DNA from: Cliona cf. orientalis
Lineage: Eukaryota; Porifera; Demospongiae; Clionaida; Clionaidae
Assembly (NCBI GenBank): GCA_963930775.1
Contig: OZ005696.1
Span: 7,006,001-7,070,000 of the forward strand
Reading direction: 5' to 3'
Length of the DNA stretch: 64,000 bases
Below the pieces are notes generated by a model. That model was not told the origin of the DNA and did no database searches. It was given only the letters and a program-made list of their open reading frames with translations. Of the stretch, positions 7,649 through 31,215 are shown one piece after another. Both the position numbers and the translations under genes were made by a program. Numbering within the stretch: the stretch's first letter is position 1; each line of letters begins with the position of its first letter.

Positions 7649-7673
7649 ATGGCAGATCATCAGGCCAGTAGAG
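7649..7673 (+). CDS. Candidate first coding exon (25 nt)
   Basis: Reads ATG plus seven codons (MADHQASR) and ends AGAG before GTCAGT, a good donor. It ends in phase 1, exactly what the next Death exon at 8251 needs. Nothing else supports it: an eight-codon match to ATG, donor and phase can arise by chance, so this is only the best start I can see upstream of 8251. Confidence 0.35.
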
Positions 7674-10600
7674 GTCAGTCACATATTTGATCTGCGTTAG
7701 AATTTCTACAAATAATTTACACTTGTATAATTGTTGTAGCGCATGGATGCCTTTTGTTAATTATTGCGGCGTGGCAGAAAGTATTATGGGTGTGTCTAGC
7801 CTCGTCCCCAGGCCCTTTTGTGTTTCCCGGTTTATAAATACGACCCCTACTCTCAGTAAACATACACTCACACACAGGATGATAGCCAAGTAGCCTTCAA
7901 TCTTGAGATCATTCTGTACCACACTAGATCTACCTGCCCCCCAAACTGGTGCCACACCCCCTAACTTTGGCCGATCAGCTTGTAGTGTGGAGGCTGATAA
8001 GCATACCAGCGCTTATGCTGCCTCCTTTTGGGTGGGATCTGGGCTACCCATAGTTCCATACTTGACCGTTTAATCTGGTTCAAAATTTCACCTTGACCAC
8101 TGGCCTGATATCCCAAGCGAGTGGGAGTACGTGTACATGTGCAGTCACCTACACTATGCCTTTCCCTCCCTTGAGGTCCTAATAGAGCTGTAAATTACAA
8201 AAAAAAAAAATATTTTTTAACATCTTATTGATAGCCTTCTTTCCTTGTAGCCCCACTCCTCTCAGTGGATGAGGTGCTCAAAGCAGTGGCAGGAGTCAAC
8301 TGGAGGACACTGGGAAAGTGGCTCGTAGGAGAAGAAATTGAACCTCATATGATAAGATACACTAACCTGGACAGAATCCGTGATACACATAAATCTGATG
8401 AGGCCCGTCTCAGAGCAGTAGTGGAGAAATCTCTCACTAAACTTAGCAGATCATGGAGGCCAATAATTCGGGCTCTTTACTGCGTTGGTGAGATTGACAA
8501 GGCACAACAGATCAGCAGCTATGCTGAACTAATGCAAGGTATGTCACTGTGTAGTGAAATTATTCGACCTGAGCTATATAAAATCTTCTTTGCTGGCTTT
8601 GCTGGACTTATGATATTACAATAGGCAGTCTACTATCACAGCTAGCTATGGTCCAAACTGTGACTAAAGCTAATAATTATTTATAAGGTCATGTGACCAG
8701 CCTGGATGAGTACATGTAGCGTAAAACCTTGACTATCAGCCATAGGGCATAACTCGAAGTAGGAACGGTTCTAGGCTCTACTTCAAAGACCTACAGACTG
8801 GTCTTATGGTTCTCTACACAGGGATATAAAAATACTAGAGCTCTGTAGAGCACATACCCCGCGCGCACATTGTGCAATCTATAGATTTATTTTCGGTGCA
8901 TGGTTTATGAACTTCAGAGAAATAGAAATGCTGCTTTAATAGCCTACTGGGGGTTCCGGTGACACTTGTAAAAGCATGCACTCTCTGAACCCAGACCTAG
9001 CCCAGACTAGGAAGATATGAATTTCTACCTATAATATTATTTTTGTAGCAATAGTAGTATAGCTGTCTTACATTATGATTGGTTCCAGATTTCAGTCACT
9101 ATAGACATCACAAGCATTATTTAGAACATTTAGTTGTGCGCATGAGCAGAAAGCACAATTGGTATGCATATGCATTGATGAGCACTGTCGATAGGCGTGG
9201 CTACGGTGGCCAACAAAAGGGCACTATTTGTGACGCTCGTAGACAGTATTCCTCGATTTGACACACACTAAAGCCAGTTTTTCGCCGAATTCGATTGATT
9301 CGTTGTGATTACGATTTTTGTGCTAACGACAACAACAACAACGACGACACGATGATTACTTTACCCCCTTGCGCATGCGCACGGGGTAAATATACCTTTG
9401 AATAGCAGACACAGTACAGTGATCTCTCCAAACTCCTGTTCGCTGGCCTGTATTATCATCAACCACCAGGTATTATCAGCTGTACATACACCTGCTCTAC
9501 AATTATTATCGGCCAAATCGAGCCTTTTTGTCTGTTGACTCTTACCTGTTCAAAATTGCCACTCCTGGTCAACAGTACTGAAACCAGCAGGTGTGATTAC
9601 CCTTACCAACTAGAGCTCTGTAGAGCACATACCCCGCGCGCTCTGTAGCTATAGTATTGCAACATTCTTGTGTAGAGCTGTTTTGTGACTTGATGATCTT
9701 TACTCTTGTACATCGCAATAATCATCAGAATTCCATTTTAATTATTATTATAATATATAGTTAATGAATCCCTCAGATTATGAAGTGTTGAGCTTTATTT
9801 TCACACAGTTGTGCCTTTGCTAGTCGAACATACTGGTACATATAGTGTCCCTTATAACACAGCTTCCTCTTCAGCTTCATAGGGACCATCTGTGTTTGAG
9901 ATGGAAGCCTTGGCAGAAGGGTACACACAGGAGTGAGATCAGTGGGTACATTGACAGCTGGCCCATGAATCGCACGTTGCTTGCCACAAGGAAGTGCTAC
10001 CATTTTCATGAAGGGGATTCGAAGAGAAATGAGACGTATCTCCAGTGGATTCAGATCTGATATATAGTTCCATTGGAATGTCATCAAGATTCAAATTATT
10101 TGCTTTGGCCTGAGCAGGTAATACTCCCCGTTTCAGACCACTGTGACACGTCTTGCAAATCCATTGCTTATCCTGTGTACTTGCAGATTTAGGGATGACA
10201 AATTCGCTGGGGGCTTTATCATAACTAAATTCTTTAAACTGTTGCACTGTTTTACGGTACATTAGTCGATTGCAGCATACACAGACATAGTCTGGTCCTT
10301 CCTTGATAGCAGAAATAAAAGCTTGGGAAGCTTCAAATACTGTACAACTCTGTCCAATTCTTCTCTGCTTTTGTGCTATTCTCCCTTCTTGACGTTGATT
10401 TTCTCTGGCGTCGTTATCTAGTGAAGCTCGTTTCCTATATATATACAAAAGGTATAATATCAATAATTCAGGAATAATATTATCAATAATTGCATATAAA
10501 CATTCTAATGCACTACCGTTTCTTTGAGGTGGCATCCTTTTGCCTTCTTTCCTCTTTCTCTATTAGTATCTCTAACTGGCGCTTGGCTGCCTTGGCCTCG

Positions 10601-13600
10601 GCTTCCTTTCGTCGTACAGTGGGCGCCAGGGACTGACGCTTGGCTGCCATGGCCTCGGCTTCCTTTTGACGTACACTGGGTGACTGGCGTTTTGCTGCCA
10701 TGGCCTCGGCCTCCTTCTGTCGTACACTGGGCGACTGGCGTTTCGCTGCCTTGGCCTCGGCCTCCTTCTGTCGTACACTGGGCGACTGGCGTTTCGCTGC
10801 CTTGGCCTCAGCCTCCTTCTGTCGTACACTGGGCGACTGGCGCTTGACTACCTTGGCCTCAGCCTCCTTTTGACGTACAATGGGCGATTGACGTTTGGCT
10901 GCCATGGCTTCAGCCTCCTTTTGTCGTACAACTGGTGATTGGCGCTTAACTGCCTTGGCTTCGGCGTCTTTTTGACATCGCCTACAAAAGTATTAAAAAA
11001 CAGTGAATTTAATAGTAGAAACAAACCATAACGTCTATTCCGTAGCTACCTTTTCTTAGTGGCTTGTATTCTTTCAAGTTCAGCTTCCTGTTGCTCTCGA
11101 ACTTTAAGTGAACGCTTTCGCTCTCTTCTGAGATCCATTGCAACGACAACTAGCGTGAAAGCTAGAAAAACTCAGAACTGTATGAAAGCACGTGGTCGGG
11201 TGAGCTTTGACGACCTTTTCCTATGCTGAGCTCGAGCATGCGCAGTCGCATCAGCATAATATAAGCCAGTGGAGTGGGTGTGGTCGATAAACCACAGGCA
11301 TGCTGAACAGAAAAGGCACGATTTATAGCGCTAGTAAGCTATTTTCAGCAATTCGAAACTTATAGAAACCAATTTTTTAACGATATCTACCGATTAGTTG
11401 TGCTTACAGCACGCACGGACGCCTAGAACTCGAGATTTGGCAATTTTCGTGCCGACAACGACAACGACGACAACGACAACAATGACAGACAGACAAACCG
11501 ATTGCTTTACCCCTTGCGCACGCGCGCGGGGTAATTACAACCAACTCGTTCTTATGCACCATTACTGAGATACAGTGAAAACGAGCTATGAATAATCATT
11601 ATTGCATTGTATGATTGTATACAATACATTTTATGATTGATAATGAATGCTGCTTTCTGGGGTTCATATGAGAACTGTCTCCTTTCTTCTGATCTGGATA
11701 AAAGTAAGTAAAGTGTCTACTATCAGGTTAGGTGATGTAGCTAGTTTCCAGCCCTCACGATCCACCACCATTCAGTACGCCATGTCACGCCCATTCAAAT
11801 TGGTTCAACACCATTCTATACCCTTCTCTCCCTTGTATTTATGTTGTAGAAGTAAGTTAAGCCTACCTGGTATCTTCAAACGAGTCTAAAACCTCTGATC
11901 CAGTCTTTGAGCATAAATGGAGCTCTGCATCACCTTTGTAAATTTTTCCGTATAAACACATAAATGTCCGTAAAATAGTGGTCGATAATCGATGTGCACT
12001 CGGCCGATAACACAAGTCGGCCGATAATCGAGGTTTTACGCTATGTGCCCTATAGTCAACCCATGTACTTTCTGCTTGAGCTCATGCACACATTATGAAT
12101 AGTTACCCCGCGCGCATGCGCAAGGGGTAAAGTAATCGGTCGTGTCGTTGTCGTGAGCACAAAAATTGCCATATCTTGAGATGTAGGCATCTAAGCGACT
12201 CGTAAGCACAACGAATCAATTGAATTCGGCGAAAAACTGCCTTCAGTGTGCGTCAAATCGATGGACACAGTCCACGGGTATCACAAATAGTGCCTTTTTG
12301 TTAGCTAATGTAGCCATACCTATCGGCAATGCCTACTCAATGCATAATGCATGTCCATTGTGTTTTCTGCTCATGCGCACAACTAAGTACTCAAGAATAA
12401 TAATTATTATGACTGGTAAAGATTGTCGAAACTAATAATGCTCGTGTCCGCTGATGGAGCTGAAATCTGCAGCCCTATGGAACCAAAATTTATCATAATG
12501 TAACACGGCTATACTATTACAACAAAGTATCAGTTCATCCTAGTAGTCTAGATCTGGTGCAGAGAGACTCAGAGAGAGATGGTGCTTTTTGTCACCGGGA
12601 CGTCCGGTAGCTACGTACAATTAAGCAGCATTTCCACTAATTTTCTGAAATTTACAAAATTATAACCATACCAGAGGCGGCGGAAACAGTTGAGTTTTGA
12701 TACGGCTAAAGTAGGGTAAAAGCAGTGCGCGCGCAAAGCGCGCGCGCAAAAATGTGGGCCACGCCCCCCCCTTTAAGCCATGCGCATGCGTAATTGTGCA
12801 TGGGGAGGGGTCTGGAGCGGTGTACTTAACTTGCGAGCTAGCTGCTCTTTGCGTTCGAGGGAGCTAGCTGGGGTCTAGAAACCAAGCTAGTGAATAGCTT
12901 AATCATGTAAGTACTGAATGATATTAGAGTGATACACTGCTAATTTTGGTACGGCTCAGCCCCCACTTGTCAAACTTTGGTACGGCTGTAGCCGTACTAG
13001 TTTCCGCCGCCTATGCATACACACAAAAGCAATTCTAGCTATAGATTGCACAATGTGCGCACAGGGTATGTGCTCTACAGAGCTTTGACTACTGGCCTGA
13101 TGTCATTTTGACCCCAGTAGCGAGTGGGAGTACACGTACAGTCACCTACATTATGCCTTTCCCTCCCTTCAGGTCCTATTATAGCTATAAATCACACAAA
13201 AAACTTTTTAATATCTTATTGATAGCCTTCCTTGTAGCCCCGCCCCTCTCAGTGGATGAGGTGCTCAAAGCAGTGGCAGGAGTCAACTGGACGAAACTCT
13301 CCCTAAACCAAGAACAAATGGTCAAGTATGGAACTGCAGGTAGCCCAGATCCCACCCAAAAGGAGGCAGCATAAGAGCCGGCATGCTTATCAGCAATAAC
13401 AACAGCCTCGTCCTCAGGGGCACTGCTTCTTGAAAAGATATAGATGGATATGCAATCGCTTCATTTCAACAAGGCGAGTGTGTAGGTCTAGTGATAGTGC
13501 TTACAACTTGACTGACTCATCACTGGTCACAGTAGGCTAATCAACTACTCTTCTTTGAGTCATGAGTTTTCAAGCTAGACCCCGTTTTAGCCTGACGACC

Positions 13601-13947
13601 TTCACCTACTCCATCCACCCTACCAACAGCAATAGTGTTGCTCCATCATACATCAGTGTTTCATTTAGAGGGGGTGCCCTGGGATTTCCCCCCCCCCCTA
13701 AAATATTGAGAAATTTTAGTATAATATATGCTAAATAAACAAATACCAAGATTTAAATTAAGGTTAAAGAGTGATTCGTCGGTTTGACTGTTTGAAATGT
13801 CTAATATCGAGTCTGTGATTTGGGAAAGTTAATCTACATGTGTATATGCACTAATTTCACACTTACTTAGTGGGTATGTATTTGTCAACCACAATCTATC
13901 AGCACTAAATTTTGATCAAAATAGGCCTAAGATGCAATTCTTTATTC

Positions 13948-13978
<31 letters not shown>

Positions 13979-16900
13979 ATACTGACATATAGTTCCCCCC
14001 CTAACAAAAAAATCCTGTATGAAACCCTGTACATCTATGCCTCAATGGCTTAGCTTGCAAATTTGCGGCCGGTAGATTATCAACTATAGCTACCTGTGCC
14101 TTTAGATTCAGAGTATTTTGCTACTGATTTCTCACAGAGTCGAGGGTTTGGCACCAGTGGTGTTCATCAAATATTAGCTCATAATTATTTCAGTTTGGAT
14201 TTTATGATAATTGCCCCATATTTGACATCAAGCAAGGTTTATTTCACTCAAGAGGGGACAAACAATTACATAATATAGCAGCAAACTTCAAGAGGGGGGC
14301 AACCCCCGTATTAAATATAGGGAAAGCCAATTTCTAAGGGGGGCAAATCAAAGCACCCCAGGCCCCCTGAAATAAACCCTGTCTAGCTCCAGAAAAATAA
14401 GCTACTGGGGATTGGATGGTTGGTGTCTGTAAATTATTTTAATCTAGCCTATACACTGGCTACACCTGTATAACCATTCACTGCGTGTCCGTCTGTTACC
14501 ACAAAATCAGCTGCCTAGCTTGTTTTTAAGTCACAAACAAAGTTTTATAGGGTTCTTTATGGTGTTTTAGATGTTTTTACTGTTTGGCTTTCCCTGAAAA
14601 CCCCTTCGTTCATGAGTTCTGGCGCCATTTGCCGGTCGCCACTGCCTTCCTTGCTCCCTGGCGAACTTTCGACGGCCAAACGAGACAGCGATGGCTTCTT
14701 TTCAATTCGAAAAGTATGCATGTATATGGTTGGTTATAGATCCAACAACACACTGATTCATCACTGATCGTAGTACACTGGCACTGGCAAAGAATCTTCT
14801 TGGCTATCTCTGCATGCTATAAACTGCTGACACAGGATGATACTGCTGGACGTTACGCAATCGTGTGCAATGTGCATTCTTGTGGTTATGTGCTAGGAAG
14901 CCTATATATAGGATCCATGTAAGCATCTTGCAGTAATATTGGACAGCTAGGCAGTACTGCTCAGTGCTTGCGCACCGAGGGTTTTGCACTATAGTGCTGT
15001 ATTTATTGTGGGTGTGGCTTACCAATGTGAATTATGAACAAAGTGTCTGCAAAGGTGGCTTGTACTGAGGCCCTATGTCAATAATAATTGATATGATAAT
15101 GCAGGAATAATAATTGCTCATGGTCAGTAATTGGCATTTATCTATCTGGTATTTAACTATGGCTATTATCCTTAGGTTATAGAGTATTATGTAACGATTT
15201 TCACAGATCCCACACTGACTGTGGAGAATGTGACTAGAGCCATGGAGAAGGTCACAGTGGACAAGAGGCGAGGGGTGTGGGTGAGGATGTTGAGACGGGG
15301 AGCTGTTGAAGAGATTTACAGCAGCCATTCCAGTGAAAAAGAGAGGCTATATTCTTGTGCTGGCCATTATGTTTGCGAACATGATGCATCCTGGAAAGAC
15401 CTTGTTCAGCGGTTGTATGCCAATAGTGAAATGGCGGCAGCAAAAGAAGCAAAGGTTTTCCTTCAACAAAAAGGTAGGTGGCTAATACTATTATGAGTAC
15501 ATGTATAATATCACTTTCCTTACCTCACATGCATGAGTGAGATATCATTGTCCACGCATTGCATGACCTCTATATCTAGTGGAGTCCACAATTTAGCAAA
15601 ATTATGAGCAACATAAATCACCCATACCAGAAAATCATTATACATGCATACCGTATGGCAGGTAATTTTCGTGGGATCTAATTTTCATGGAAAGTCCGAA
15701 AAGGCCCTCAAAATTAATTTTCGTGGTTTTAAATTTCGTGACAGCAACCAGTCTAGGGGCGTGGCCATGGCACTGCTGCATAAACGATGATGTAATCAAT
15801 ACACACGCTCGCGATCACTTTGTTACTAAGCCATACCTATAGAGACTTGGACAAAAGGCATGAGATAGAAGAATATTAGTGTCGAAGACGCTATCAGCTG
15901 GATGATGGTGACTACTGTTGCTTGCTAACACTGGAAAATGTTGGCCGCGCTGCCACAATATGTTTGTGGCCACGCCCATCATCATGGACCCATATCATCG
16001 TAGGCATTAATTTTCGTGGGTGGGAAAATTTCGTGACTGCCAAGTCAATCATGAAAATAACAAAAATTACCGGCCATACGTAGATACATGTACATGTACA
16101 TAATATTATATGTTGTCCATTAGCCTCATACCCAGGCTCTAATGGGAGGGGAAAGAAGAGCCTGGAATCAGTTGCGTGCATATTCATTTAATTAAAGCCA
16201 CGTGACTACAATCAAATTACGTAATCAACATTTGAATAGTGCTGGTATCTCAATAATGAACACGAATTTTCTTGTGCTGGTTAGATCATGCGTTTTATTA
16301 GCATAAACACGGTACATGCACAGTAGCTGGTGTGATATTATGTAATTAACAATGTCCTCTCTGTCCCCAGACCCCACACTGACAGTGGAGAATGTGACTA
16401 GAGCCATGGAGAAGGTCACAGTGGACGAGAGGAGACGAGTGTGGGAGGAGGTGTTGGAGGAGGGAGCTGTTGAAGAGATTTACAGCAGCCATTCCAGTGA
16501 AGAGGAGAAACTACATTCTTGTGCTGACATCTATGCTAACTGCAAACCTGACTCATCATGGGAAACTCTTGTTAGTTTGTCGTTTTTCTGTGGTGAAATA
16601 GCAGCAGCCAAGGAGGCAAAATCTTTCCTTCAACACAATGGTGGGTGGTTCATAGTATAATACATCAGGTGTTCCCTGCACACTAGCCAAATTACATGTA
16701 GCTGTTTGCTACTTCTGTACCCTAAGTGCTGTTTCGTATCTAACTGCAACAGTGATACTTAAATATCGGCCCATGGCTTCCCCCAGTATATGTCCGATGT
16801 AAGGTGCCACCGCCCATGGGCCCTTTTTCGCAAAGGTGCAGTCATTTTTGCTACTACAGTGGAACTGGACAACTGGAACCTCTCTATAGCGGCCACCGCT

Positions 16901-19900
16901 GGGGAATAAAGTTTGGCCTTTATAGAGGGGTGGCCCTATCTCAGGGTTTTTTTTTCCAAAATTGAAACAAATCTATAATACAACTTGGATTATGCATACA
17001 AAAACATTAAGCAAGGTGAAAATATTATTCGAATGTGCTCTCCCTAGCGGAGTTGGGGTTCGTACAGTGAAGGGAGGTTAGCCCTGTCAGTGCATGTTGC
17101 ACCTGTATCTAGCATCTATCTGCACAGATTGGTGTGGCATACCTAGAAAACTTTTATGGGTGGGCTAGAAAATCGTGAAATTTGAAGGTTTTCTCCCTCA
17201 AAAGTTTTTTTTTGCTATACTGTATAATGATGTTAAGAGGAAAATTGGAACTGTAATTGTTGTACCTGTGGTTTTCCCCAGACCCCACTTTGACAGTAGA
17301 GAATGTGGCTGGTGTGATGGAAAAAGTTGTAGTGGATAAGAGGAGACAGCTGTGGGAGAGAATGCTTGGAAAGGAGGAAAAGTTAATGGTGCAAAGGATG
17401 TCAAATCCCACTCTCAGCTACACGTATTCCAGTGAGAAAGCGAGGACCCATGCCTGTAGTGATGTGTATGTCAACTGTCGTCCAGAGTCATCCTGGGAAC
17501 ACCTCACCTCACTGCTGTATGAAAAGGATGAGCTGACTGCAATGGATCAGGCCAGACTATTTCTGCCTCCTAGAGGTAAATTGTACACATTAATGATAGT
17601 AACACTCAGTACTTGAGAGGTATTAATCCTTGGTGCATATGCCGTAGGGTACAGTACTCGTTCTGTCTGTCTGCGTGTGTATATCTGTTACCATGAAATC
17701 TGCTGCTTACCTTGTTTTTTACGTCGAAAGGGAGGTGTCGTAGGGTTCTTTATGGTGTTTTCAAGATTTTGGTTTTTGCTAAAAACCCTTTGTTCAAGAG
17801 TTCTGGTGTCATTCGCAGGTCACCGCCCCCTTTCTTGCTCAATGCATGGTGAACTTTTGGTTGACAGAAGAGACAGCAATGGCTTCTTTTTAACGTATGT
17901 ATGGCAGACATGGATCCAACAAGCTAAGATGACTGGCTCACATGTATCTTGAATAACACTGCTATGCTATAATATTATTGTCGTTGCCTGCTTGTGCAAC
18001 TAATGTCAATGTGCCAAGGATTATGTGCTCTAGACAGCTCTAGTTACTTCCCATGGTTCAACTACAATGTACCTCATGGTCACTCACACCCATCCCACAC
18101 AGCCAGCAATTTGCCTACAATGCATTTTAATATTCCTAGGCAATGGCATTAAGACATATTTGCGACTACCCTAGTTTTAAATTAAATTTTCGTACCTCTA
18201 ATAATTATTCCTAGCCTCGTCCCCAGGCCCTCCCAGTTTTTAATGTTGCACGCAAAAAACGGGAGGGCCTGGTACGCGAAGTCACGTGCATAGTGTCATG
18301 ATGATCGATCGTGACGTGGCATGACGCGAACGAAAAGTAGGTCGATCGAGGTCAACAAAACCGGGGCGTTTCTACGCTATCCATGCCTTCTATCAACTAC
18401 AAACATACAGTTTGAGCCGACGAAGGATCACCTTTTACTCGTATGACAGCGATATCTCTATATTTCTTATCATTTGCGAGCTGTAGCGCTCATAAGTCTG
18501 GTGACCTTCGACCCGCGAGGTGTTGTGGACCTTCTCTCACCTTCTCTCTCCATCACGTGACTTCGCGTACCAGGCCCTCCCCCTTTTCTGCGTGTAACAT
18601 TGAAAACGTGGGAGTGGCCTGGGGACGAGGCTAAATTATTCCTAGTTATACTGTATACAATGGGTCAGACGGACATTTTTTCTTATACAGTTTGTGTCTT
18701 AACCTGGAGGGCATAAAAGATACACTCTCCTACAAGTTTAGAAGGCTCACAGTTGGTCAAAATTATTGTACCGTGTACACAAGCGAGGTTACCAGGGCCT
18801 AGGGCCTATATGGGCCATAGAGACGCATTCTTGAGCTCGAGCGAGTGGCACAAAGCACCGTGCATTTCAACAGGCCTGCTCAGCAGGCCTCAGAGCTTCG
18901 AGTGAAGTGAGAGCAAGAATGGATAAGTATTCATGTGCAATCATCTTCGCGTGCACAAAATATAGGAATGACAGATTTTAGTTTGGCGGCTGGCTGGCTG
19001 ATCCGCCAAACCGCAAATTTTCCAGCTATATGGTGTATTAAAGTCTATTATAGTAATGTCATGCCTTGTACATTCTGGGCAAATGCCCACTACTGGATAA
19101 GTGTTCATGTGCCCACAATGTATCACTGTTTACTTGTCCCCGCAGACCTCACTCTCACCACTGATAGACTCACGGAGCTGTTTCAATCAGTTGAGGATCC
19201 AGATAAATTAGTATTTGTGAGATCAGATGGATCTTTGATTCCTGGAATTGGAAGGTCCCTTGGTCTACCAGAGTCTGCATTAGAGGAAATCAAGAGCAGC
19301 TACCAGAGCAAGACTAAACGAAAAGAGGCTTACCTTGATACATACATCCACCGTCACCCGTGCCCATCGTGGAAGAAGATTAGTGAGCTTCTGAAGGAAT
19401 ATTCCCTCGAACAACAGGCTAGTGAGGTGGAGGACACCTACATTCAAGGTATGCATCTAACACAAAGTCAAGATCATGTACAATATGGCATGTCATGTAG
19501 CTGTGTACTTGAGCACAATCGACAGCAGTGCATGCATAGTACCATAGTTATTATATATATACAACGAAAAATATTTTTCAGACGATCATTTTTCTTATAT
19601 AGTCCGTGTCATTACATGAGGGCATGGATACGCGTCTTTGATGCGCCCGGTTGCTATGAACGCGCGGCGCGGGCTGAGAGAAGTCAGCGCTTACAAGGCT
19701 CGGGATTGGTCAGAACTATGGTGGCCGAGAGCGTCAGTTTTTCGTGTACGGTTCCGGCTCCTGAATAAGAATGCGGGTCCGGTTCCGGCTCCAAAATACG
19801 AACACGGATCCGGTCCCGGCTCCGAAATAGGGATACGGGTCCAGTTCTGAAATAAGAACACGGATCCGGTCCCGAATTAGGTTTACGGTTCCGGAATGAT

Positions 19901-22900: not shown

Positions 22901-25900
22901 TAAATCCGCTAATATTCTTGTATTAGCGATTTTGGGCTCAACCGCCAAATTTAATTCCCGCCAATATTTCCGGCTATACGGTAAATATTAAGCTACCAGT
23001 GCAAACTTCCATTATTAACCCTCAGCTCATGTGTGAGATTATGGTAGTTGTTCTGTGTGTACATGTGTGTGTGTCTGTCTCTCTGTCTATCTGTTACCAA
23101 GCTAACTGCTATAGTGATTGTTATATTTCAAGAAGACTAGTGAGTGATAGTTCTTCATCAGGCCACCTTATCATAGAGTCGGTAGACTCTATAAGTAGGG
23201 ATGGCCCGGATATGCCATATATGTAATATATTATAAATACCCAAATATCTCAAAATAAGTAATTTTGTGAAATTTCTAAGTGTGAAAATCAGAATCTCCA
23301 GCAAATTGTACATCTAACAAGACCAAGATCATCCATCAAAACAATTGTACACGTCAGAACCAGATGTTAAAAAAATAGGCCATTTCTCATTCTTTCTTCT
23401 TTCTTTCTTTCTTTCTCATTTCCAGGGCTAAGTCAAGACTGTCTGGACCTCTCACCTTAGTTTTCATATAGATCCACTCTATTTTGTAGCGCACAGTGCA
23501 GTGGCACGCTAGTTTGGCGTTATCTCGACAATTACATAACAGTGGGTGTGTACGGCACATTATCGAATGGGTGTGTCTGATACATCATTTTTGTGATATA
23601 ATGCGCATGCTCGGAATGTGTTGCCATGGTGAAGTCATGTGACATGCAGCGCCTGGCCCTAGGCGAGCTAGCTAGCTTAGATGATTACTAGCTCGTACAT
23701 CGCTAGCGCGTGCAACGGCGCACTGGACCGATCATGGATATGATGGTTTGCTTTTTGAGGGGTGCAAAAATAGCCAGTAATAATGCGATTGAATCAAAAC
23801 TGATAAACCCGAACCATCGTGACAACTAGGGAACAACCTGCACGAATGTCTCCCACATACCGCACTCAACAAACACATCAACCATGATCAATAGGTGCAC
23901 AATAGTCGAGAAAAGCAAGTGTAGGGATGTATAGTAGATGCGATTATCCCTTGTTTGTGTACTTTTTGATCCTGTCATCCCTACTTCATTTTTCAATTTT
24001 ATTCAATTGTTTTTATACTTGTGTAAGTGTACAGTGCAATCTAATTCTTCCCAGCCGTCCTTTGATGCAGCCTACTTTTAAATTAGTCATGGCTTGGGCA
24101 AAGCTAACTGAATAAGTGGATTGCATACGCAAATCCAGCAATGCCGAGAAAAAAAGGTTGTTTATACCTCAGATCGAGTGGCTTCTGGTCACTATAAGAT
24201 TAGTATAATAAAGTATAGCAATAAAACCTGTGTATGGATATCACATTACGTAGGGTGCATGATTTCCAACCTTTTTTCGGTCTTAACCCCAACTAGATAA
24301 CTACCTTCAGGCTTTAGTATCAGTGAGTTCGACCATTTGGTACCACGATGATTATCTGACAGCTTGCCAGCAAATACCTTCAGTGCAAGTGTGGTAGACA
24401 TGTAGATAATATTGGTATCCTAACACTACATCTAAATAACGTCTGGGGGATGTGAACAGATTAATGAGCTACGTCTGGGAGCACGCATGTCGCCATCAAA
24501 TATTGTCTGGTGGGAGAAATTCATCGTTGAATTATGTCCCCTACGCATGTGCTTCTGCTGACTTGGATAAGTTTTAAATTTGATGTTATTAGCTACTGTC
24601 ATATAAACTATACAGATCAAAATGTAAACATCAGCTCAAAAATGTAAGTTCCATAGTTCAGTATCTCCAGGAAGACTAACACATCGCATATGATACTGTA
24701 ATTAATCGAATATAATGCATGATCCAATTTTATACGCAAGAAATTAGCTTTTTACGAATTCTCATAACGCTTATATATGAGCGATTGACGACCTTTACCA
24801 GAAAAACGCGCGTTTTTCAAAATTGAAATTATTCTTTTTCCATGCATTGTATTAGTAGGCATATTACATCAAAATTTTAGATTATCCCTTACACTTTCTT
24901 TGCTACACATAATAATAAAGGAGGCTTCAAGATACAATTTAGTCTTTGTTCCGTAAAATTTCATTGAATGGTTGCGGAGATATGGCTGTTTTAATATTTC
25001 TAAACATCACAATTTTTCTGCCAGGCTTGTGTGTACTATTCCAATAGGGGAATGGCACGAAACATGTTGATTGCTTTAGAGGCCTATAACTCAAAAACTA
25101 CACTACTGATTGACTCCAAACTTGAAATATAGCATGTAAGTACCTTTCTGCTTATTCTACTGATGAATTTAACATGCATTAATGAATATATAAAAAAAAA
25201 AAATTGGTGTGCATACCTGTTTGGCTGCTATTGTAGCTAATACTTCACTGCCTCAGAATTCCAGAAGCTGACTTAGCTTCATGCATGATTTTTTGAAATT
25301 TCTAGTTTAGATGTCCACTCAAACACATACATAAACTCTCACAGTGGTACACACACATGTTCACACATGTACATGCACATTATGCACATATTAATATTGT
25401 TTTTTGAAGTGGAATCTATTCTTAAAGTGTAAGATGAGCCCTGAGTTCCTTAGAAGCAACAAAGAGTTTAAAGTGCGTGCACTTTCTGTGTAACGTATTT
25501 TTTGGCAAAAATAGTCTAGCTAGGGGTAGTTTGAGCCAAAAATTTCATTTTTCATATTTTCAACGCATTTTCTCATATGTACACATGCTATTTTACACAA
25601 AGTAAAATGCTGATTGAGCTCTTTTCGACCGAACACTTCAAAAATGGTTGAAACTACTGAAAAATTTGAAATCAGCACCTTAAAGTACCTCTAGAAGCAT
25701 AAAATGCCCTGGAGAAATGAGCAGCATGGAGCAAGTTGAAGTTATCCATTAGCAATATTTGTGTGCCACAGTAGTTAAGTATGTGGTATTTATGGAGTTT
25801 TTCTGAAGCCCTGCAATGCCGGAAGTGGTTACAACCCAACACTTTGGATACTGCAGTGTAGTGTAGTGCTATCTTTGCTGAAGCCTGTGGTGCAAGTTTG

Positions 25901-28900
25901 GTGTTCGTAGCACATTGTAGTGAGTAGTTATGATCCCTGAAACTTCATAATATTTAAATGTGTGCAGGTTTTTATAGGCATTTTTTTGGGATTCTGATAT
26001 GCCTAGTATTAGATTAAATACGGTAGCTACCAATGCTCACTTAATCTTATTCTCCCACCCTGGCATCTCCTCTTCAGTCTCCACAACTAGAGCTCTCTAG
26101 AGCACATACCCCGTGCGCTGCATCTGCATCTATCTGCACTCTCTGGGGACGAGACTACTTGTTGTGCGCACGAGCAGAAAGCACAAGTGGGTGTGGTTGA
26201 TAGATGTGGCCAGTAAAAACGCAGTTTTGCAGTGCTCGTGGGCCTTACCGAATGATTCGAAAAAAACAATGGAGTAAATTTATCGATGATTTCAGCAGAG
26301 TTATAATGCTTATGAGTCGCTCAGATACCTAGATCTTGAGATCTGGCAATTTTTATGCTAATAGACAAACTTCGCCATAATTAAATTTTATTTTAAAAAC
26401 CATACCCACTAAGCTGCGAGTGAGAGAGGATTTAGCTTGCCAGACACTAATCTAGCAAGCTAAACCCTTTCTTGATGGTCACTTAGCCATGGTGTTTGCT
26501 AGCTTGGTTTTATACAGTGACACTTTGTATTCTGATTGGCACGTCAGTTGATTTTTTGACTCATTTTTTACATTAGAGCGGTAACCTTGGCCGGGTAGAC
26601 ATTATCACAAATGGGACAGACATGTTAATTGATGGCATCCCCCTGGACATATAATTTATATCCCCCAGACACGATTCTACGAGGGATGCTATATGGTGTG
26701 ACACCGGTATGCATGAAAGTTGCATGGTATTTGATGAATTTTGCATTCATCCACGAGAATTTAGCAAATAGTGTGATCCTATCTATAATGTACTGTACAC
26801 TATAGCTAATTAATGGCTCCAGATGGGCCCTAAAATTCACTTGAAATACCAAATACAGTATAGATTACCTCATGCATGTATTTATGCACTCAGTAACGAT
26901 TTACTTTTTTGCGGTTATTAGGTAATTATGAGTAATTATGATGAAACCTATGGTGTAATCTCTTAGGTAATCTATGAGGTAATTATGAGAAAATTTAGGG
27001 CCTCGATGGAGCCCTTCTGGGACTTGAAATTTAGTGAAATATATTGCGCGTGTATCCAGCGAATACCTTACAAGCAGCGTGTTGCCTTCTCTGATGAGCA
27101 GCGACGGCCGAACTTCACGCGTTCTCTAGGCTGACGTAATCCCGTGATTATATATAGATATAGCCCTGCGCTATATATAGCACCAGGAGCGCATGATAAA
27201 TAATGAAGAGGAGGAGGGGAAGGGAAGGAGCGCGAAGCACCCACACAAAAGATTAAAATTTCAAATTTTTCCCACGGTAGTCACGTTACTAAGTTATGAA
27301 CAATGGCGCAACGCGCATGGCGCTAACCGGCCAGATGCTAGATGAGTCAGCAATTTTTACAATGGACACGAGAAGCTAGTCATGCCTGGGAGACTCTGTG
27401 GAGCTCGTCTGCAAACCGAAAGAAGTAGCAGTATAGCCCGATCGTTCTGATTTAACACCCCCTCACCAAACGAGATCGGACTCGGCGAGTACGTACTTTC
27501 TGTCTATCAATTATACGTACTTACTTTCTCTTGGCATGGATCAACTCGTTTGGTACGTGTACAGTACTAATAGCTCGCGATCGCGAAGCCAGTCTTGTCC
27601 ACAGCGACTAGCTTCTCGTCCATTGTCCAACGCAAAAATTGCTGACTCGTCTGCCATCTGGCCGGTTAGCGCCATGCGCGTTGCGCCATTGTTCTAAACT
27701 TAGTAACGCGACTACCGTGGGAAAAATTTGAAATTTTAATCTCACGTGGGCGCTTCGCGCTCCTTCCCTTCCCCTCCTCCTCTTCATTATTAATTTTATC
27801 ATGCGCTCCTGATAGCACACACCATGAGCAGCGTGCTGCCTGGACCAGTCTAGCTGTACTGCGCTGTTGAGTTCTTCTTAGCTTACGTTGAAAGTTTTCA
27901 CTATCGAGGTCCAGAGACACTCAGATTCCCGATGATTGAGGCGCCAGCATCATACTGTACAGTGAAGTGAACCCACTATATTGACGACCTTTACCACATA
28001 CACCATTTCAACTATGCAGCTACTGAGTGCATGGTCAGGTTTTCATATAATTATCTAGTTACCACAGAAAAAAGTAAAGTGCTACTATATCTGATTAGTT
28101 TTTAACTATTGGCCATGCCATTACATATAACTATGCAGTGTCTGAGAGAACTCAGCATTACTTTGACATTGCCATGAAAGAAGGAACTTTGATGATCCGA
28201 AATGGTGGCATATTTTTCCTTGGTCCTGGTGGGTCAGGAAAGACCTGCACTCTTCACGCTCTCCTTCTGGAGCCACCTCCATCTGTACGACAAAGCACTC
28301 CATGTGCTAAACGAACAGTGAGAACTATAGCTCAATGCAAGGTGGGAGTGGAGGGAGTTTACTTCATTCGAATCCAAGATGACCAGTATTCCGACATGCT
28401 CAGCACAACAGCCAAGCAGTTAGAGCCGCCCAGCATCAGCACAGCCACTCCCACACCAGCTGAAGAAGGAGCAATATCGAGAGAAGATGCTTCAGTGCCC
28501 AGTCCAGCATCAGTCAGTCAACACATTGAGGAGGCTGACTTACACACTACCGAACAAGAAGAGAATCCAGATGTTAGTCCAGAAAAGAAGCAGAAGAAAC
28601 CTTCATCTCGTCGTAGTGGTTTTGAGAGAGAATTGCTTCGTCGAATGCAGTTGGTGCCAAAGAGATCAGAAAATCTCATCGACAAAGATCTAATAGACAT
28701 GAAGGATTCAGGGGGGCAACCAATGTTCCATGAAGTGCTACCCCTCTTTGTCAAAAACACCACGTTCGGTGTACTCACAGTGAAGTTGAATGAAAGGCTG
28801 GATAGCTACCCCATGGTAGACTATTACAGCAATGGCAAGCCGGTAGGAGAGCCGTTCCCATCTCCCTTTACACACATGCAGACCTTTCGTCACTGTATGA

Positions 28901-31215
28901 GGGTCCTTCAGTCGACTTGTAGCAAAGGCACCTGCCCAAAGCTTGTGTTCATTGGCACTCATAAAGACCTCGAGCAGGAGTGCCCAGATGAAAACAGAGA
29001 GGAAAAAAATCGAAAGCTTCGAAGCATAATCCCTCCAAATCTGAAGCAAAGCATCCTCTACTATGAGCATTCAAATGAAGAGCTTCTGTTTGGGGTCAAT
29101 GTCAAAGCACCAGAAGATATTGATCGTAAGATGATAGGATGCGTACGAGAAAGAATGATAAAGGAGTTACGAAAGCTCCCACAGGAAAAAATTCCACTTC
29201 AGTACTTTGCCTTGGAGAATGCCTTCTTGCGGTTGGCAAAGTATCAGCGTAAAGGAGTTCTGAGCAAAGAAGATTGCTTTAGAGAGGCATCTGTGTATCA
29301 TTTCACCAAGGAGTCTTTTGAAGCAGCCCTGAAGTACCTCCGTGGCCTCAAGCTTATCTTTCACTATGAAGAGGTTCTTCCAGAAGTGGTCTTCATTGAT
29401 GCCCAGACCATCCTTGACAAGATCACTGAGCTTGTTGAATTTAGTTTATCAGTATCTTCACAGTCCAAGCCAGTACATGAGTTAACCATATCTATGGATA
29501 TCAAGGAGTTTCAAGAATTCAAAGCTTATGGCATTGTCACACTGGAGCTTCTTTCACAGTTTAGCTCTCACTATGTGCCAGGCTTATTCATGCAGCAGCA
29601 GCTAGTCATTGTCTTGAAGTACCTACGGGTGATTGCTGAAGTTGGCAAAGGTAAGTACCTCATGCCCTGTCTCCTCAGAGTGTCAACCATACCTCGTCTC
29701 TTACCATGCTCTACTGGGCCATCCATCTCTGCACTTCTCTTCTATTTTGGTCCGAATGGTCCTAAACTTGGGGTCTACTGCTGTCTCCTTGCTTCTCTCA
29801 TCACTGAAGCCAATTGGGAGCTCATGACTGAGAATAATTGCCCTGTCCAAGTTTCACGCAACCAAGTTCAGTTCAGGCTTCCAGGAGATAATCCTGGTGC
29901 TATCACTATAACCGATTCATTCTCTACTTCATTTCATGTCAGTGTCGACTTTCCTGAGAACATGGATTCTACCAAAGTTCTTCAAATATGCACTAAATCC
30001 TGTCCGAGTATTCGTGAAATCATCCTAACTGGCATTCGAAAAGTATCACACAGGCTGAACTACAACAATTCAGTCCCAAAAGTAGCATTCCCCTGTTCAT
30101 TCCACCTACCAAATGATCTACACCCTGCCACTATCTCTGAGAGTCAAGTTTTGACTTGTACCACTCATCCTCGCTCTGTGTGTAATGAACTAACGACTGA
30201 ACACAAGTTGTGGCTTGGAGAAGAAGAGCACACTGGTAAGCATGATATGCAGTGTGTCATAATAATAATATAGCATGATTATTATTAACAAGTGTTGATA
30301 TTGTTTTACTGCTCTCCTATTCCTTTCTCTATAGTCAGAGAGCCTAAGAAGAAGATGCTGGATCAAGTTCTCGACTGTGATGGTGGGGGAGTTTCCAAGC
30401 ACCTTGGTCAGATAGCTGACTCCATGAATGAGTGGGAAGGACCAGTTGCTGAAGAACTGGGCCTCAGTCCAGCAGACATCACTGCTATTAAGATAGAAAA
30501 CCCTTCCAAATTCAACCTACAAGCGTGAGTACATACTAGCTGTAGTTAGCTCTTGTATATAAAGTACTTATATCACAATTCATGTTTTATACTTCTTACC
30601 ATTCTTCTTCATCTCCTTATGGAATGAATGATAACTAATAGAAATTATATATAATCTATCCTCAGGAGAGCTGCTCTGGAGAAATGGAAGCAGTACAATG
30701 GCCCTAGTGCCACCTACAGGAAACTGATTGCTGCATTTGAACAAGCTGGTCGGAAAGATTTTGCTAGCAAAGTTTACGACATAGCTGGTAGGTAACTCAA
30801 AAGTAACTATAGTGACCATTGCTCACTGTATTTTCTTTTCTTAGGTGTACCTTCAACTGTCACAGAAGCTAAGATTGAAAGTGGCCAAGCAAAAGCCCAT
30901 GTTGGGGTTCAGAAAAAGCGTGAGTCAGCCACAATAGCAGCTGAAGGTGGTAAAAAGCCACAATTGGCTAAAGCATTCAAACTTCTTATTCCAATTGCGG
31001 AGGAGTGGCAAAATGTTGGAACTCTATTGGAACTTAAGGACGATGCCCTCACATCAATTGCTGCAGCTGGTAAAAAAGACACTGATCGCCTACGAGAGAT
31101 GCTGAAACTGTGGTTGGGCCAAGAGGACCCTGTACCCTCATGGGAAGCACTGACTGAAGCTGTGGAACCATTCAGTGGTGAAGTGGTTGCCAAGGTGAAG
31201 TCACAGTATGCTTGA
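7649..31215 (+). CDS. Multi-Death-domain Roc-COR GTPase gene (assembled model)
   Basis: Proposed model with ten exons: 7649-7673, 8251-8538, 15207-15473, 16371-16640, 17282-17575, 19146-19448, 28139-30235, 30335-30524, 30666-30787 and 30845-31215. They sum to 4227 nt, 1408 codons plus stop, with the frame kept at every junction. Order of domains: five Death-like modules (about residues 9-483), a Roc-type GTPase with COR (about 483-1180), then two Death domains. This recalls DAPK1 (kinase, ankyrin, Roc-COR, Death) without kinase or ankyrins. A role in a death or innate-signalling scaffold, with GTP binding controlling assembly, is inference. The four exons from 28139 surely belong together. 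Joining the five upstream Death exons, across introns of up to 8.7 kb full of transposons, rests on matching phase 1 and shared module type; two neighbouring genes are the main alternative. Confidence 0.55.
8251..8538 (+). CDS. Death-domain exon 1
   Basis: Begins after TTCCTTGTAG and ends CAAG before GTATGT; 288 nt, phase 1 at both ends. The product starts PLLSVDEVLKAVAGVNWRTL and ends SWRPIIRALYCVGEIDKAQQI, the pattern of a Death fold: a first tryptophan after helix 1, then a W..I..AL segment in the last helices. A truncated copy lies at 13238. Death domains pair with other Death domains in receptor-proximal complexes; no partner can be named here. Confidence 0.7.
8539..9132. other. Intronic sequence with short dispersed repeats
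   Basis: No exon seen. Bases near 8836-8885 carry the repeat TAGAGCTCTGTAGAGCACAT followed by ACCCCGCGCGC; similar copies occur near 9611, near 13040-13080 (inverted) and near 26089. The segment 8898-8965 is also found inverted near 12590-12660. Confidence 0.4.
9133..9388 (+). mobile_element. Miniature element, GTTGTGCGCATGAGCAGAAA family
   Basis: Begins GTTGTGCGCATGAGCAGAAA and ends with a near-palindrome TTACCCCCTTGCGCATGCGC followed by ACGGGGTAA, preceded by an (ACAACG)n-like stretch. Other copies: 11273-11534 (diverged at its left end), 12103-12382 on the minus strand, 26161-26378 (right end missing) and 54741-54974. No coding capacity. Confidence 0.6.
9389..9772. other. Intronic sequence without genes
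   Basis: Contains a second copy of the TAGAGCTCTGTAGAGCACAT motif near 9611. No exon, RNA gene or further repeat structure recognised. Confidence 0.3.
9773..11138 (-). pseudogene. Helitron-type protein gene remnant (DUF6570-like N-terminal region)
   Basis: Three exons on the minus strand: 11050-11138 (ATG at 11138), 10517-10981, and 10434 down to about 9775. Splice sites fit and the frame is kept across both introns. The first part is highly charged, with seven 17-residue repeats of the type AAKRQSPSVRQKEAEAK. It is followed by CVCCNRLMYRKTVQQFKEF, WICKTCHSGLKRG and ANNLNLDDIPMEL, then in another frame SDLNPLEIRLISLRIPFMKM and LKRKLCYKGHYMY. This cysteine-rich block precedes the Rep and helicase domains in Helitron proteins of many animals. 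A four-base TATA insertion near 10063-10070 breaks the frame, and sequence stops before any Rep or helicase motif. It is therefore a truncated, dead copy lying in an intron, opposite to the host gene. Confidence 0.75.
10620..10975 (-). repeat. 51-bp tandem repeats in the Helitron remnant
   Basis: About seven units of 51 bp encode the 17-residue KRQSPSVRQKEAEA repeat described for the surrounding gene. The spacing is exact, so the protein frame is preserved through the array. Confidence 0.8.
11273..11534 (+). mobile_element. Second copy of the GTTGTGCGC...GGGGTAA miniature element
   Basis: Right half matches the copy at 9133-9388: an (ACAACG)n-like tract, then GATTGCTTTACCCCTTGCGC and GCGGGGTAA. 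The left end is diverged (CATGCTGAACAGAAAAGGCA instead of CATGAGCAGAAAGCAC). Confidence 0.5.
11535..12102. other. Intronic sequence without recognised features
   Basis: An open frame at 11647-11889 has no recognisable motif. I see no exon, RNA gene or clear repeat. Confidence 0.3.
12103..12382 (-). mobile_element. Inverted copy of the GTTGTGCGC...GGGGTAA miniature element
   Basis: Starts TTACCCCGCGCGCATGCGCA then AGGGGTAAAG, and ends CTGCTCATGCGCACAAC, the reverse complement of the copy at 9133. Together with the following 200 bp it mirrors the order found at 8.85-9.39 kb. Confidence 0.6.
12675..13012. mobile_element. Miniature inverted-repeat element (AGGCGGCGGAAAC ends)
   Basis: Left end AGGCGGCGGAAACAGTTG, right end CTAGTTTCCGCCGCCT; the outer 13 bases are exact inverses. 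Subterminal TACGGCT also occurs on both sides. Inside are GCGCGCGCAAAGCGCGCGCG and CACGCCCCCCCC. No clear target duplication. Confidence 0.7.
13085..13376 (+). pseudogene. Truncated duplicate of Death exon 1 with its intron flank
   Basis: Bases 13085-13295 repeat the segment 8095-8300: the upstream intron, the acceptor (CCTTGTAG) and the opening of the exon (PPLSVDEVLKAVAGVNW). After that tryptophan the match stops. Bases 13300-13376 instead match 8090-8010 in reverse orientation (GGTCAAGTATGGAACT, CCCACCCAAAAGGAGGCAGC). The Death fold is cut after helix 1 and the frame ends at TAA, so this exon copy is dead. Confidence 0.7.
13655..14029. mobile_element. Miniature element with G-tract and TACATC target duplication
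   Basis: Flanked on both sides by TACATC. Left end AGTGTTTCATTTAGAGGGGG; right end, read inverted, ACAGGGTTTCATACAGGATT. Contains a C-run near 13690 and about 28 consecutive G near 13950-13978. A related element lies at 40444-40607, and an end-like fragment at about 14280-14385. Confidence 0.6.
14030..14485. other. Intronic sequence, repeat fragments only
   Basis: Holds a fragment around 14280-14385 (GGGGGGCAACCCCC, then GCCCCCTGAAATAAACCCTG) related to the element at 13655. No exon recognised. Confidence 0.35.
14486..14755 (+). repeat. Dispersed repeat shared with 17665-17925
   Basis: Direct copies share TCTGTTACCA, AGGGTTCTTTATGGTGTTTT, AACCCCTTCGTTCATGAGTT and AGACAGCGATGGCTTCTTTT with small differences. 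A short piece of its left end recurs near 23063-23120. No inverted ends or coding potential. Confidence 0.6.
15207..15473 (+). CDS. Death-like exon 2 (first of three related copies)
   Basis: Acceptor TTTTCACAG, donor AAAG/GTAGGT; 267 nt, phase 1 at both ends. Starts DPTLTVENVTRAMEKVTVDK and ends SWKDLVQRLYANSEMAAAKE, with the SW..L...L signature of Death folds near the C-terminus. It is clearly paralogous to the exons at 16371 and 17282, including the SSHSSE stretch in the middle. The first half is shorter and more charged than a usual Death domain, so the fold call is moderate. Confidence 0.6.
15649..16082. mobile_element. Miniature element with TACCGTATGGC ends
   Basis: Left end TACCGTATGGCAGGTAATTT, right end AAAAATTACCGGCCATACGTA in inverse order. 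AATTTTCGTGG words are repeated inside on both strands. It lies in the intron between Death exons 2 and 3. Confidence 0.6.
16371..16640 (+). CDS. Death-like exon 3 (second related copy)
   Basis: Acceptor CTGTCCCCAG, donor AATG/GTGGGT; 270 nt, phase 1 at both ends. Opens with the same DPTLTVENVTRAMEKV as the exon at 15207 and carries SSHSSEEEKLHSC in the middle and SSWETLVSLSFFCGEIAAAK near the end. It is the closest copy to exon 15207, consistent with a recent tandem exon duplication. Confidence 0.6.
16641..17281. other. Intron between Death exons 3 and 4
   Basis: Bases near 16856-16945 (AACCTCTCTATAGCGGCCAC, then GGCCTTTATAGAGGGGTGGC) form an inverted pair that looks like the end of a DNA transposon; the family is uncertain. 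Nothing else recognised. Confidence 0.4.
17282..17575 (+). CDS. Death-like exon 4 (third, more diverged copy)
   Basis: Acceptor GTTTTCCCCAG, donor AGAG/GTAAAT; 294 nt, phase 1 at both ends. Opens DPTLTVENVAGVMEKVVVDK, has a longer middle than its two relatives (region around SNPTLSYTYSSEKARTHAC) and ends with SSWEHLTSLLYEKDELTAMD. Same module as 15207 and 16371 but older. Confidence 0.6.
17665..17925 (+). repeat. Second copy of the 14486-14755 dispersed repeat
   Basis: Shares GGGTTCTTTATGGTGTTTT and AGACAGCAATGGCTTCTTTT in the same order and orientation as the copy at 14486. Confidence 0.55.
18213..18632. mobile_element. Long-inverted-repeat miniature element (AGCCTCGTCCCCAGGCC family)
   Basis: Begins AGCCTCGTCCCCAGGCCCTC and ends GGCCTGGGGACGAGGCT. 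The inverted arms extend about 85 bp, to CGCGAAGTCACGTG and its inverse. AATTATTCCT flanks both sides, a 10-bp target duplication. Shorter relatives: 40311-40392, 50926-50992, 16124-16163 and a left end at 7797. Confidence 0.8.
18670..18920 (+). repeat. Dispersed repeat (ACCTGGAGGGCATAAAAGAT type)
   Basis: Matches 21855-22095 in order: ACCTGGAGGGCATAAAAGAT, CTCTCCTACAAGTT, GGGCCATAGAGA, CATTCTTGAGCTCGAGCGAG and CAGGCCTGCTCAGCAGGCC. Partial copies lie at 19558-19718 and 21040-21250. Confidence 0.6.
19146..19448 (+). CDS. Death-domain exon 5
   Basis: Acceptor TGTCCCCGCAG, donor CAAG/GTATGC; 303 nt, phase 1 at both ends. Product has GIGRSLGLPESALEEIKSSY, then SWKKISELLKEYSLEQQASE, matching helices 2-3 and 5-6 of a typical Death domain better than the preceding exons. 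Its phase joins in frame to the GTPase exon at 28139, although 8.7 kb of repeat-filled intron would lie between. Confidence 0.65.
19718..19905 (+). repeat. Left arm of a large inverted repeat (CCGGTTCCGG-rich)
   Basis: Reads GGTGGCCGAGAGCGTCAGTT, then TTCGTGTACGGTTCCGGCTC followed by four to five degenerate 30-bp repeats of the CGGGTCCGGTTCCGGCTCC type. The reverse complement is at 20825-21018, with about 920 bp between. The middle (20050-20230) contains more diverged units. Open frames rich in Arg, Pro and Asp here are repeat artefacts. Confidence 0.7.
20825..21018 (-). repeat. Right arm of the CCGGTTCCGG inverted repeat
   Basis: Inverse of 19718-19905, ending CGTACACGAAAAACTGACAC then TCTCGGCCACCAT. 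Beyond it lies a partial copy of the GGGCCATAGAGACGCATT repeat. Confidence 0.7.
21255..21630. mobile_element. hAT-like miniature element (CAGTGGCGTATCCAGG ends)
   Basis: Left end CAGTGGCGTATCCAGG and right end CCTGGATACGCCAGTG are inverse apart from one base, flanked by CTTAG on each side. The CAGTGGCG start is typical of hAT superfamily elements. Inside: GCGCGCGAAGCGCGCGCG and a second inverted pair GGGGGGTGCT/AGCACCCCCC. No transposase. Confidence 0.7.
21840..22190 (+). repeat. Second full copy of the ACCTGGAGGGCATAAAAGAT repeat
   Basis: As described for 18670-18920, with a longer right part (TTCGACGTTCGAGCGGAGTG). Open frames through it change between copies and show no conserved protein. 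Confidence 0.55.
22775..22983. mobile_element. Palindromic miniature element (TACCGTATAGCCGGAAA ends)
   Basis: Left end TACCGTATAGCCGGAAAA, right end TTTCCGGCTATACGGTA, with the inner AAATTTGGCGG also inverted. A TA target would fit a Tc1/mariner-type origin. A related fragment (TATAGCCGGAAATA) is at about 42783. Confidence 0.7.
22984..27183. other. Long gene-poor intronic region
   Basis: No exon, RNA gene or conserved protein recognised on either strand; the scattered open frames lack motifs. It holds a (TTTC)n stretch near 23395-23415, a fragment of the GTTGTGCGC miniature element at 26161-26378, a short inverted pair near 26432-26467 (TTTAGCTTGCCAGA / TCTAGCAAGCTAAA) and one GACGACCTTTACC motif at 24787. 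If the Death/Roc-COR model is right, this is part of its largest intron. Confidence 0.4.
26161..26378 (+). mobile_element. Right-truncated GTTGTGCGC miniature element
   Basis: Begins GTTGTGCGCACGAGCAGAAA and continues through GATCTTGAGATCTGGCAATT, as in the copies at 9133 and 54741, but stops before the GGGGTAA end. Just upstream (26089-26115) is TAGAGCTCTCTAGAGCACAT. Confidence 0.5.
27184..27811. mobile_element. Fold-back element with ~200-bp inverted arms
   Basis: Arms 27184-27381 and 27606-27811 are inverse copies, beginning CAGGAGCGCATGATAAA and ending TTTATCATGCGCTCCTG. The sequence ATAGCAC flanks both ends, a 7-bp target duplication. The loop of about 225 bp has no gene. Open frames on the minus strand of both arms encode the same meaningless peptide. 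The arm includes GCGCAACGCGCATGGCGC. Confidence 0.8.
28139..31215 (+). CDS. Roc-COR GTPase exon plus two C-terminal Death domains
   Basis: Exon 28139-30235 (2097 nt) encodes a Roc-like GTPase: P-loop GPGGSGKT (about residue 511 of the full model), DSGGQP as G3, THKD as G4. A low-complexity Ser/Pro/Glu insert lies between G1 and G3. A COR-like region follows (FMQQQLVIVLKYLRVIAEV, KGKYLMPCLL). Exons 30335-30524 and 30666-30787 encode one Death domain split by a phase 2 intron (SKHLGQIADSMNEWEGPVAE, ELGLSPADI, then YRKLIAAFEQAGRKDFASKV). Exon 30845-31215 encodes a second (AFKLLIPIAEEWQNVGTLLE, SWEALTEAVEPFSGEVV) and the stop. Roc-COR proteins include LRRK2, MFHAS1 and DAPK1; the C-terminal Death domains make DAPK1 the nearest layout. 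No ATG exists at the exon start, so coding must continue upstream. Confidence 0.85.

Follow-up and report, generated by a model that had tools for sequence, protein, structure and literature searches.

Roc-COR exons behind arrays of Death-type modules in a sponge: a large gene family and a candidate GTP-controlled assembly hub

Can a single gene join a Roc-COR GTPase to some seven Death-type modules? The question is raised by a stretch of 64,000 nucleotides from the sponge Cliona cf. orientalis (GenBank assembly GCA_963930775.1, contig OZ005696.1, positions 7,006,001 to 7,070,000 of the forward strand), hereafter the window, in whose numbering coordinates are given. A first-pass annotation, made from the letters alone, had proposed such a gene, in frame and with symmetric phase-1 exons between 8251 and 30235. 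We rebuilt this model exactly: ten exons between 7649 and 31215, all with canonical borders and free of internal stops, form a continuous frame of 1408 codons plus a stop, and the six consecutive exons between 8251 and 30235 are all in phase 1 at both ends. They encode a start peptide, five upstream modules (E1 to E5), the Roc-COR domains and two downstream Death domains (D7 and D8; Table 1). Comparative searches were run exon by exon over the window's own 216.8-Mb genome.

E5 (19448) and the Roc-COR exon (28139) are separated in the window by a gap of 8.7 kb. We read the same junction at seven loci, hand-picked among those with the shortest E5-Roc gaps. In all seven relatives the intron is 250–362 bp long, has GT-AG borders, lies in phase 1 and carries 3 to 9 stops on read-through, and the joined frame aligns without gaps with the E5-Roc junction of the window. 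In these relatives, introns of this size leave little room for a separate promoter, though the window gene might have one. The window gene and its three neighbouring counterparts (units A to D, described below) have almost the same acceptor sequence at the Roc exon. Paralogues thus lend good support to the proposal that the 19448–28139 junction belongs to one gene, and the window very probably holds a single gene for a Roc-COR GTPase with about seven Death modules. At one locus, L085 (unit A), the E5 donor is GC in place of GT, corresponding either to a rare GC-AG intron or to a defect.

The start exon (25 bases plus GT, up to three mismatches allowed) had five matches in the genome, four exact and one with a single mismatch. 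All are on the + strand of C8, upstream of a gene of the Roc-COR/Death type, and a reversed control pattern gave none. They define four units, A to D, including that of the window, as well as a broken unit that retains a fragment of E1; the mismatch belongs to unit C, whose start exon lies 4.3 kb before E1. The three other units are near the window on the same strand and share the order start, E1, several E3-type exons, E5, Roc-COR, D8. The window unit has three E3-type exons and its three neighbours four or five.

The same order extends far beyond these units. Among the 64 Roc-COR exon matches scored in the genome (the window's included, 62 of them without stops), an E5-type exon lies upstream on the same strand within 20 kb in every case and within 10 kb in 59; on the opposite strand, none of the 64 has one upstream within 10 kb. 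E5 is the last module before Roc-COR in 64 of 64 chains, E1-type is the first in 42 of the 45 chains having more than one module, and in 19 of 64 no module other than E5 was found. An E5 is also found 3′ of Roc-COR, on the same strand within 10 kb, in 18 of 64 cases, which we read as the next gene in a tandem row. These E5-to-Roc counts, and those of the wider set that follows, leave out 19 of 145 E5 matches (E 1.9e-6 or weaker). A shorter COR query gave a wider set of 129 loci at 119.7 bits or more, again including the window's; 21 of 150 rows, starting with the next at 75.9 bits, were left out. An E5-type exon lies 5′ on the same strand within 20 kb at 126 of these 129 loci and is lacking at three; at two loci the last module found is E3-type. 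In 122 of 127 cases the nearest module lies 5′ in the same orientation, and the last module is of the E5 type in 122 of 129. The number of upstream modules found per locus ranges from 0 (five loci) to 12, these counts being lower bounds as the best candidates alone were scored. By these sequence comparisons the window gene is a typical member of a large family built from interchangeable exons. Where the first-pass annotation saw an isolated curiosity, the genome has about 129 such loci, this one among them, with 12 upstream modules found in one relative.

Several members of the family have features of their own. Two paralogues near the window look damaged: L040 has a stop in Roc-COR (C8, 7289673), and L041 has extra or reversed Roc and D7 pieces at its 3′ end. 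Three Roc-COR loci on C8 (2763154, 2802475 and 2840677) have near-equal scores and a spacing of 38–39 kb, corresponding to a recent tandem duplication or to a duplication in the assembly. A second, more distant cluster is located on C18 (5.21–6.35 Mb), with 11 COR matches of 50–54% identity in frames of 417–925 amino acids, several of which have Pfam Death matches within 2 kb.

The large exon matched neither Roc nor COR of Pfam, including in a Pfam Roc scan of its own genome, and its identity was therefore taken from its predicted fold. An AlphaFold model built from 50 sequences (mean predicted local distance difference test, pLDDT, 79.1; predicted template modelling score, pTM, 0.80) had as its three best PDB matches LRRK1 (E 1.1e-14), LRRK2 (2.2e-14) and the RocCOR tandem of Chlorobium tepidum, 3dpu (2.2e-13), at about 11% identity and a root-mean-square deviation of 7 to 10. 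The alignment covers 719 columns with 3dpu and 343 with the COR structure 3dpt, chain B; Rab structures are also among the matches. The model shows what is expected of a Roco protein, a Ras-like G domain with P-loop, switch II and G4 motifs and, in the structure alignments, a COR domain directly behind it (COR-A in homologues being under cut-off). Across the 50 sequences G29, G32, G34 and K35 of G1 are invariant, as are G193 of G3 and G273, H275 and D277 of G4, and D190 and Q194 of G3 are nearly so. Model confidence is very low at residues 99–158 of the exon, a stretch between G1 and G3 that may be disordered. On its predicted structure, the exon is a Roc-COR with intact predicted nucleotide-binding motifs.

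We gathered 49 protein homologues of this exon, some labelled COR-A and one Death by Pfam. In eight that were scanned, COR-A was found in six, always under the Pfam cut-off, and Death in four, twice over it. The homologous single-exon frames may come from the same or a close species and were not used as evidence of splicing across species. Neither the Roc-COR exon alone nor E1, E3 or E5 gave a useful match in sequence searches of solved structures; a profile search returned Death chains for the C-terminal part and weak matches to the LRRK2 Roc (best E 0.035). A weak Pfam match to Microtub_bd on the Roc-COR exon (E 0.041) has no meaning here, NCBIfam matches were at chance level, and a viral scan found no relative.

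How firmly can the modules be called Death domains? D7 and D8 are clear, both scoring over the Pfam Death cut-off and giving the protein a C-terminal Death domain as in the DAPK1 group. At the same cut-off (22.6 bits), E1 to E4 had no match, E5 reached 17.7 bits and none of 31 E3-type modules was recognized. E3, the sole upstream module modelled, has a six-helix Death fold in its predicted structure, and E2 and E4 are assigned through homology to it. E5 and E1 are assigned through profile comparison with E3 (hhalign probability 84 for E1–E3), leaving E5 marginal and E1 an indirect, putative case. Pfam names found on E3-type modules, CysG_dimeriser on 5 of 31 and RdRP_1 on 2 of 31, are weak and meaningless here. 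At all 30 E3-type loci that were read (two of which lie in the window), the match is bordered by an AG acceptor and, close to its end, by a GT donor in phase 1. Half of these loci (15) have an ATG about 15–25 nt before the exon, for instance at window position 16352, so that gene prediction may turn a single module into a small protein of its own, as with 98-aa open reading frames.

Constraint is not uniform along the gene. Pooled over units A to D, the ratio of nonsynonymous to synonymous substitution rates (dN/dS) was 0.22 for Roc-COR, 0.46 for D8, 0.53 for E4, 0.63 for E5, 0.73 for E1 and 0.85 for E2 and E3, where E2, E3 and E4 types were paired between units by likeness (E2 from units A, C and D; E3 from A, B and D). 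There was no stop in the exons compared. A Roc-COR value of 0.74 against L040 was out of line and was dropped, probably reflecting the stop and a frame shift in L040. In 37 E3-type modules of other genes (15 of the 52 gathered were left out as another subfamily), amino-acid changes cluster at the end of helix 2 with loop 2–3 and at helix 5 with its flanking loops. Omega was 1.0 for whole modules and 1.74 for these two regions, which were chosen after the fact. When hot sites were picked on 12 modules and retested on the 25 held out, omega was 1.34, not significantly above 1 (p 0.11), against 0.74 at the remaining sites (one-sided p 0.0096). Positive selection, suggested by the 12 modules, was weaker in the 37 and not significant in the 25; lowered constraint is all that we claim for the E3-type upstream modules. 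The lower constraint suggests that the upstream modules have varied partners instead of being identical docking sites.

We compared the gene with known systems as the cited papers describe them. Roco proteins include LRR-RocCOR forms (LRR, leucine-rich repeat) with an added C-terminal kinase and the DAPK1 group, which lacks LRRs but has a Death domain and, ahead of Roc-COR, a kinase (PMC6337361). PMC11378527 also describes simple LRR-ROC-COR proteins. By Pfam, no model exon matches a kinase (introns were partly scanned), an LRR, NACHT, as would be expected of an NLR, or TRADD-N, for which a divergent Amphimedon clade may lack a Pfam model. The predicted protein fits none of the described Roco groups, because no LRR or kinase was found in its exons and because it has Death modules on both sides of Roc-COR. 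With DAPK1, the metazoan third Roco group, it shares a Roc-COR followed by a C-terminal Death domain, but DAPK1 carries a kinase at the N-terminus and a single Death domain, whereas the window gene has five Death-type modules before Roc-COR and two Death domains after it (PMC6337361). LRRK1, LRRK2 and the C. tepidum Roco share its fold but are distant in sequence and differ in having LRR or kinase domains, which were not found in the window exons. A sea-anemone protein, NG3 (kinase, Roc/COR, Death, TIR), also combines Death with Roc-COR in an invertebrate, but with one Death domain and with a kinase and a TIR (PMC5094078). The earlier statement that known Roc-COR proteins have at most one Death domain agrees with PMC6337361 and PMC5094078, and we found no description of a multi-Death Roc-COR protein in the open-access literature (subscription papers and preprints lay outside this scope).

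In gene design, the nearest counterpart is found in brown algae, whose LRR-ROCO genes, proposed immune receptors, likewise form a large family in which Roc-COR is preceded by arrays of modules, each on a single exon and all sharing one intron phase. There, the modules are LRRs on 72-bp phase-2 exons, instead of Death-type folds on 267–303-bp phase-1 exons, and the sponge gene also has Death domains behind COR (PMC11378527). Amphimedon has 357 TRADD-N proteins, a large animal family of variable architecture, most with 1–3 N-terminal Death-like domains, but centred on TRADD-N instead of Roc-COR (PMC8195603). Sponge NLRD receptors, an expanded family with a Death domain before a nucleotide-binding switch, have NACHT and LRR and, unlike the window gene, no Roc-COR (PMC12909245).

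Taken together, we consider it probable that this Roco-type gene (start exon, five Death-fold modules, Roc-COR, two Death domains) acts as a GTP-controlled hub for Death-fold assembly. Gene order, exon phases and the E5-to-Roc junction are established by comparison of relatives and the folds of Roc-COR and E3 by predicted models, from which we infer a hub in cell death or immunity. Death folds are known to bind one another, and the modules would recruit Death-domain partners from the cell-death and innate-immune machinery. By analogy with relatives, in which Roc-COR is a nucleotide-dependent dimeriser, Roc-COR could gather the Death array or release it. Such relatives dimerise, and a bacterial one shifts its oligomeric state with the bound nucleotide (PMC6337361). 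Gain and loss of phase 1-1 exons would let paralogues vary in the number of docking sites and in partner surface around a constant GTPase core. The less constrained module surfaces and the tandem expansion would suit an immune role.

The strongest alternative, which we rate as possible but clearly less probable than a hub, is that splicing selects from the array: the window would still hold one gene, with each mRNA carrying a subset of the Death exons and no seven-module protein being made. All modules are symmetric, so that exons could be skipped in any combination without a frame shift, loci differ in the number of upstream modules found, and brown-algal ROCO genes with shuffled LRR exons splice alternatively (PMC11378527). 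Against this, the ranks of E1, E3-type and E5 modules are nearly fixed, which mutually exclusive exons would not need. It is about equally conceivable, and again rather unlikely, that the family of roughly 129 loci serves as a combinatorial innate repertoire, in which the order, number and surface of Death folds would code for partners or foreign proteins, splicing possibly adding to the variety, and Roc-COR would read out the result. We find it improbable that the modules act as receptor or decoy, binding foreign proteins or mimicking their targets while Roc-COR reports the binding. The lowered constraint on upstream modules and the pile-up of changes in two regions of E3-type modules would agree with this, but neither the whole-module omega nor the retest of hot sites indicates positive selection, and there is no known ligand.

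That the window holds two genes, a poly-Death gene (7.6–19.5 kb) and a separate Roc-COR-Death gene (28.1–31.2 kb), is very improbable. The intron between them is indeed long and repeat-bearing, but the phase-1 acceptor of Roc needs an upstream donor, the seven short-gap relatives have E5 with a matching donor just upstream, order and strand are the same in all 64 cases, and no Pfam domain was found in the 11 scanned of 25 open reading frames (at least 70 aa) in the gap. Finally, a decaying copy of a birth-and-death family that makes no protein, to which gene fragments in the window, the stop in L040 and the rearranged end of L041 could point, is hardly credible for a gene without stops in its exons and with a Roc-COR dN/dS of 0.23–0.25 against units A to C.

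Table 1. Exons and GTPase motifs of the Roc-COR/Death gene (window positions).
Feature	Position	Strand	Remarks
Start exon MADHQASR	7649..7673	+	phase 0 to 1; in frame; 5 genome matches
E1, Death-like module 1	8251..8538	+	phase 1-1; 76–77% identity to paralogues in three neighbouring units
E2, Death-like module 2 (E3 type)	15207..15473	+	phase 1-1; 66–67% identity to E3
E3, Death-like module 3	16371..16640	+	phase 1-1
E4, Death-like module 4 (E3 type)	17282..17575	+	phase 1-1; 45–46% identity to E3
E5, Death-like module 5, directly before Roc-COR	19146..19448	+	phase 1-1; Pfam Death E 0.004, under cut-off
Roc-COR GTPase exon	28139..30235	+	phase 1-1; model matches LRRK1, LRRK2, RocCOR 3dpu
P-loop GPGGSGKT (G1)	28222..28245	+	motif in Roc-COR exon
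DSGGQ, switch II (G3)	28705..28719	+	motif in Roc-COR exon
GTHKD (G4-like)	28954..28968	+	motif in Roc-COR exon
Death domain D7, part 1	30335..30524	+	joined to 30666–30787: Pfam Death E 6.4e-14
Death domain D7, part 2	30666..30787	+	phase 2 in, phase 1 out
D8, C-terminal Death domain and stop codon	30845..31215	+	Pfam Death 24.0 bits, cut-off 22.6

D8 is 87–90% identical to its copies in the three neighbouring units. The intron between E1 and E2 contains the isolated first 21 codons of an E1-type exon (13237–13299, 86% identity), a leftover of a duplicated unit or module. It also holds, on the − strand (9939–10992), a cysteine-containing frame of 206 aa without Pfam match, possibly a mobile-element remnant, adjoined by a minisatellite of 7.7 copies of 51 bp (10575–10974). 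An inverted repeat with 168-nt arms (77%) and 31-bp tandem units occupies 19717–21014 in the E5-Roc intron. Upstream of the start exon, a direct repeat of about 680 bp is present three times (4664–6623); one part is 97–99% identical in all copies and another 99% in copy 2 and 73% in copy 3. The neighbouring gene on the − strand (32217–33175) encodes an alpha-amylase C-terminal domain (E 1.3e-6) and, judging by its motif, looks like the terminal part of a glycogen branching enzyme.

A protein with a Death domain usually has just one, and signalling proceeds through helical assemblies of several proteins. A protein with many covalently joined Death folds and a nucleotide switch could fix in advance how large such an assembly is and what it contains; the gene appears to encode a hub of a new kind, for signalling in cell death or immunity. 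It would link Roco GTPases, among them LRRK2 of Parkinson's disease, to an expanded, immune-looking repertoire. The family's natural variants, up to 129 and with different numbers of modules, would also offer a test of how many docking sites are needed. A combinatorial repertoire, if true, would be the Death-fold counterpart of the NLR and brown-algal LRR-ROCO repertoires.
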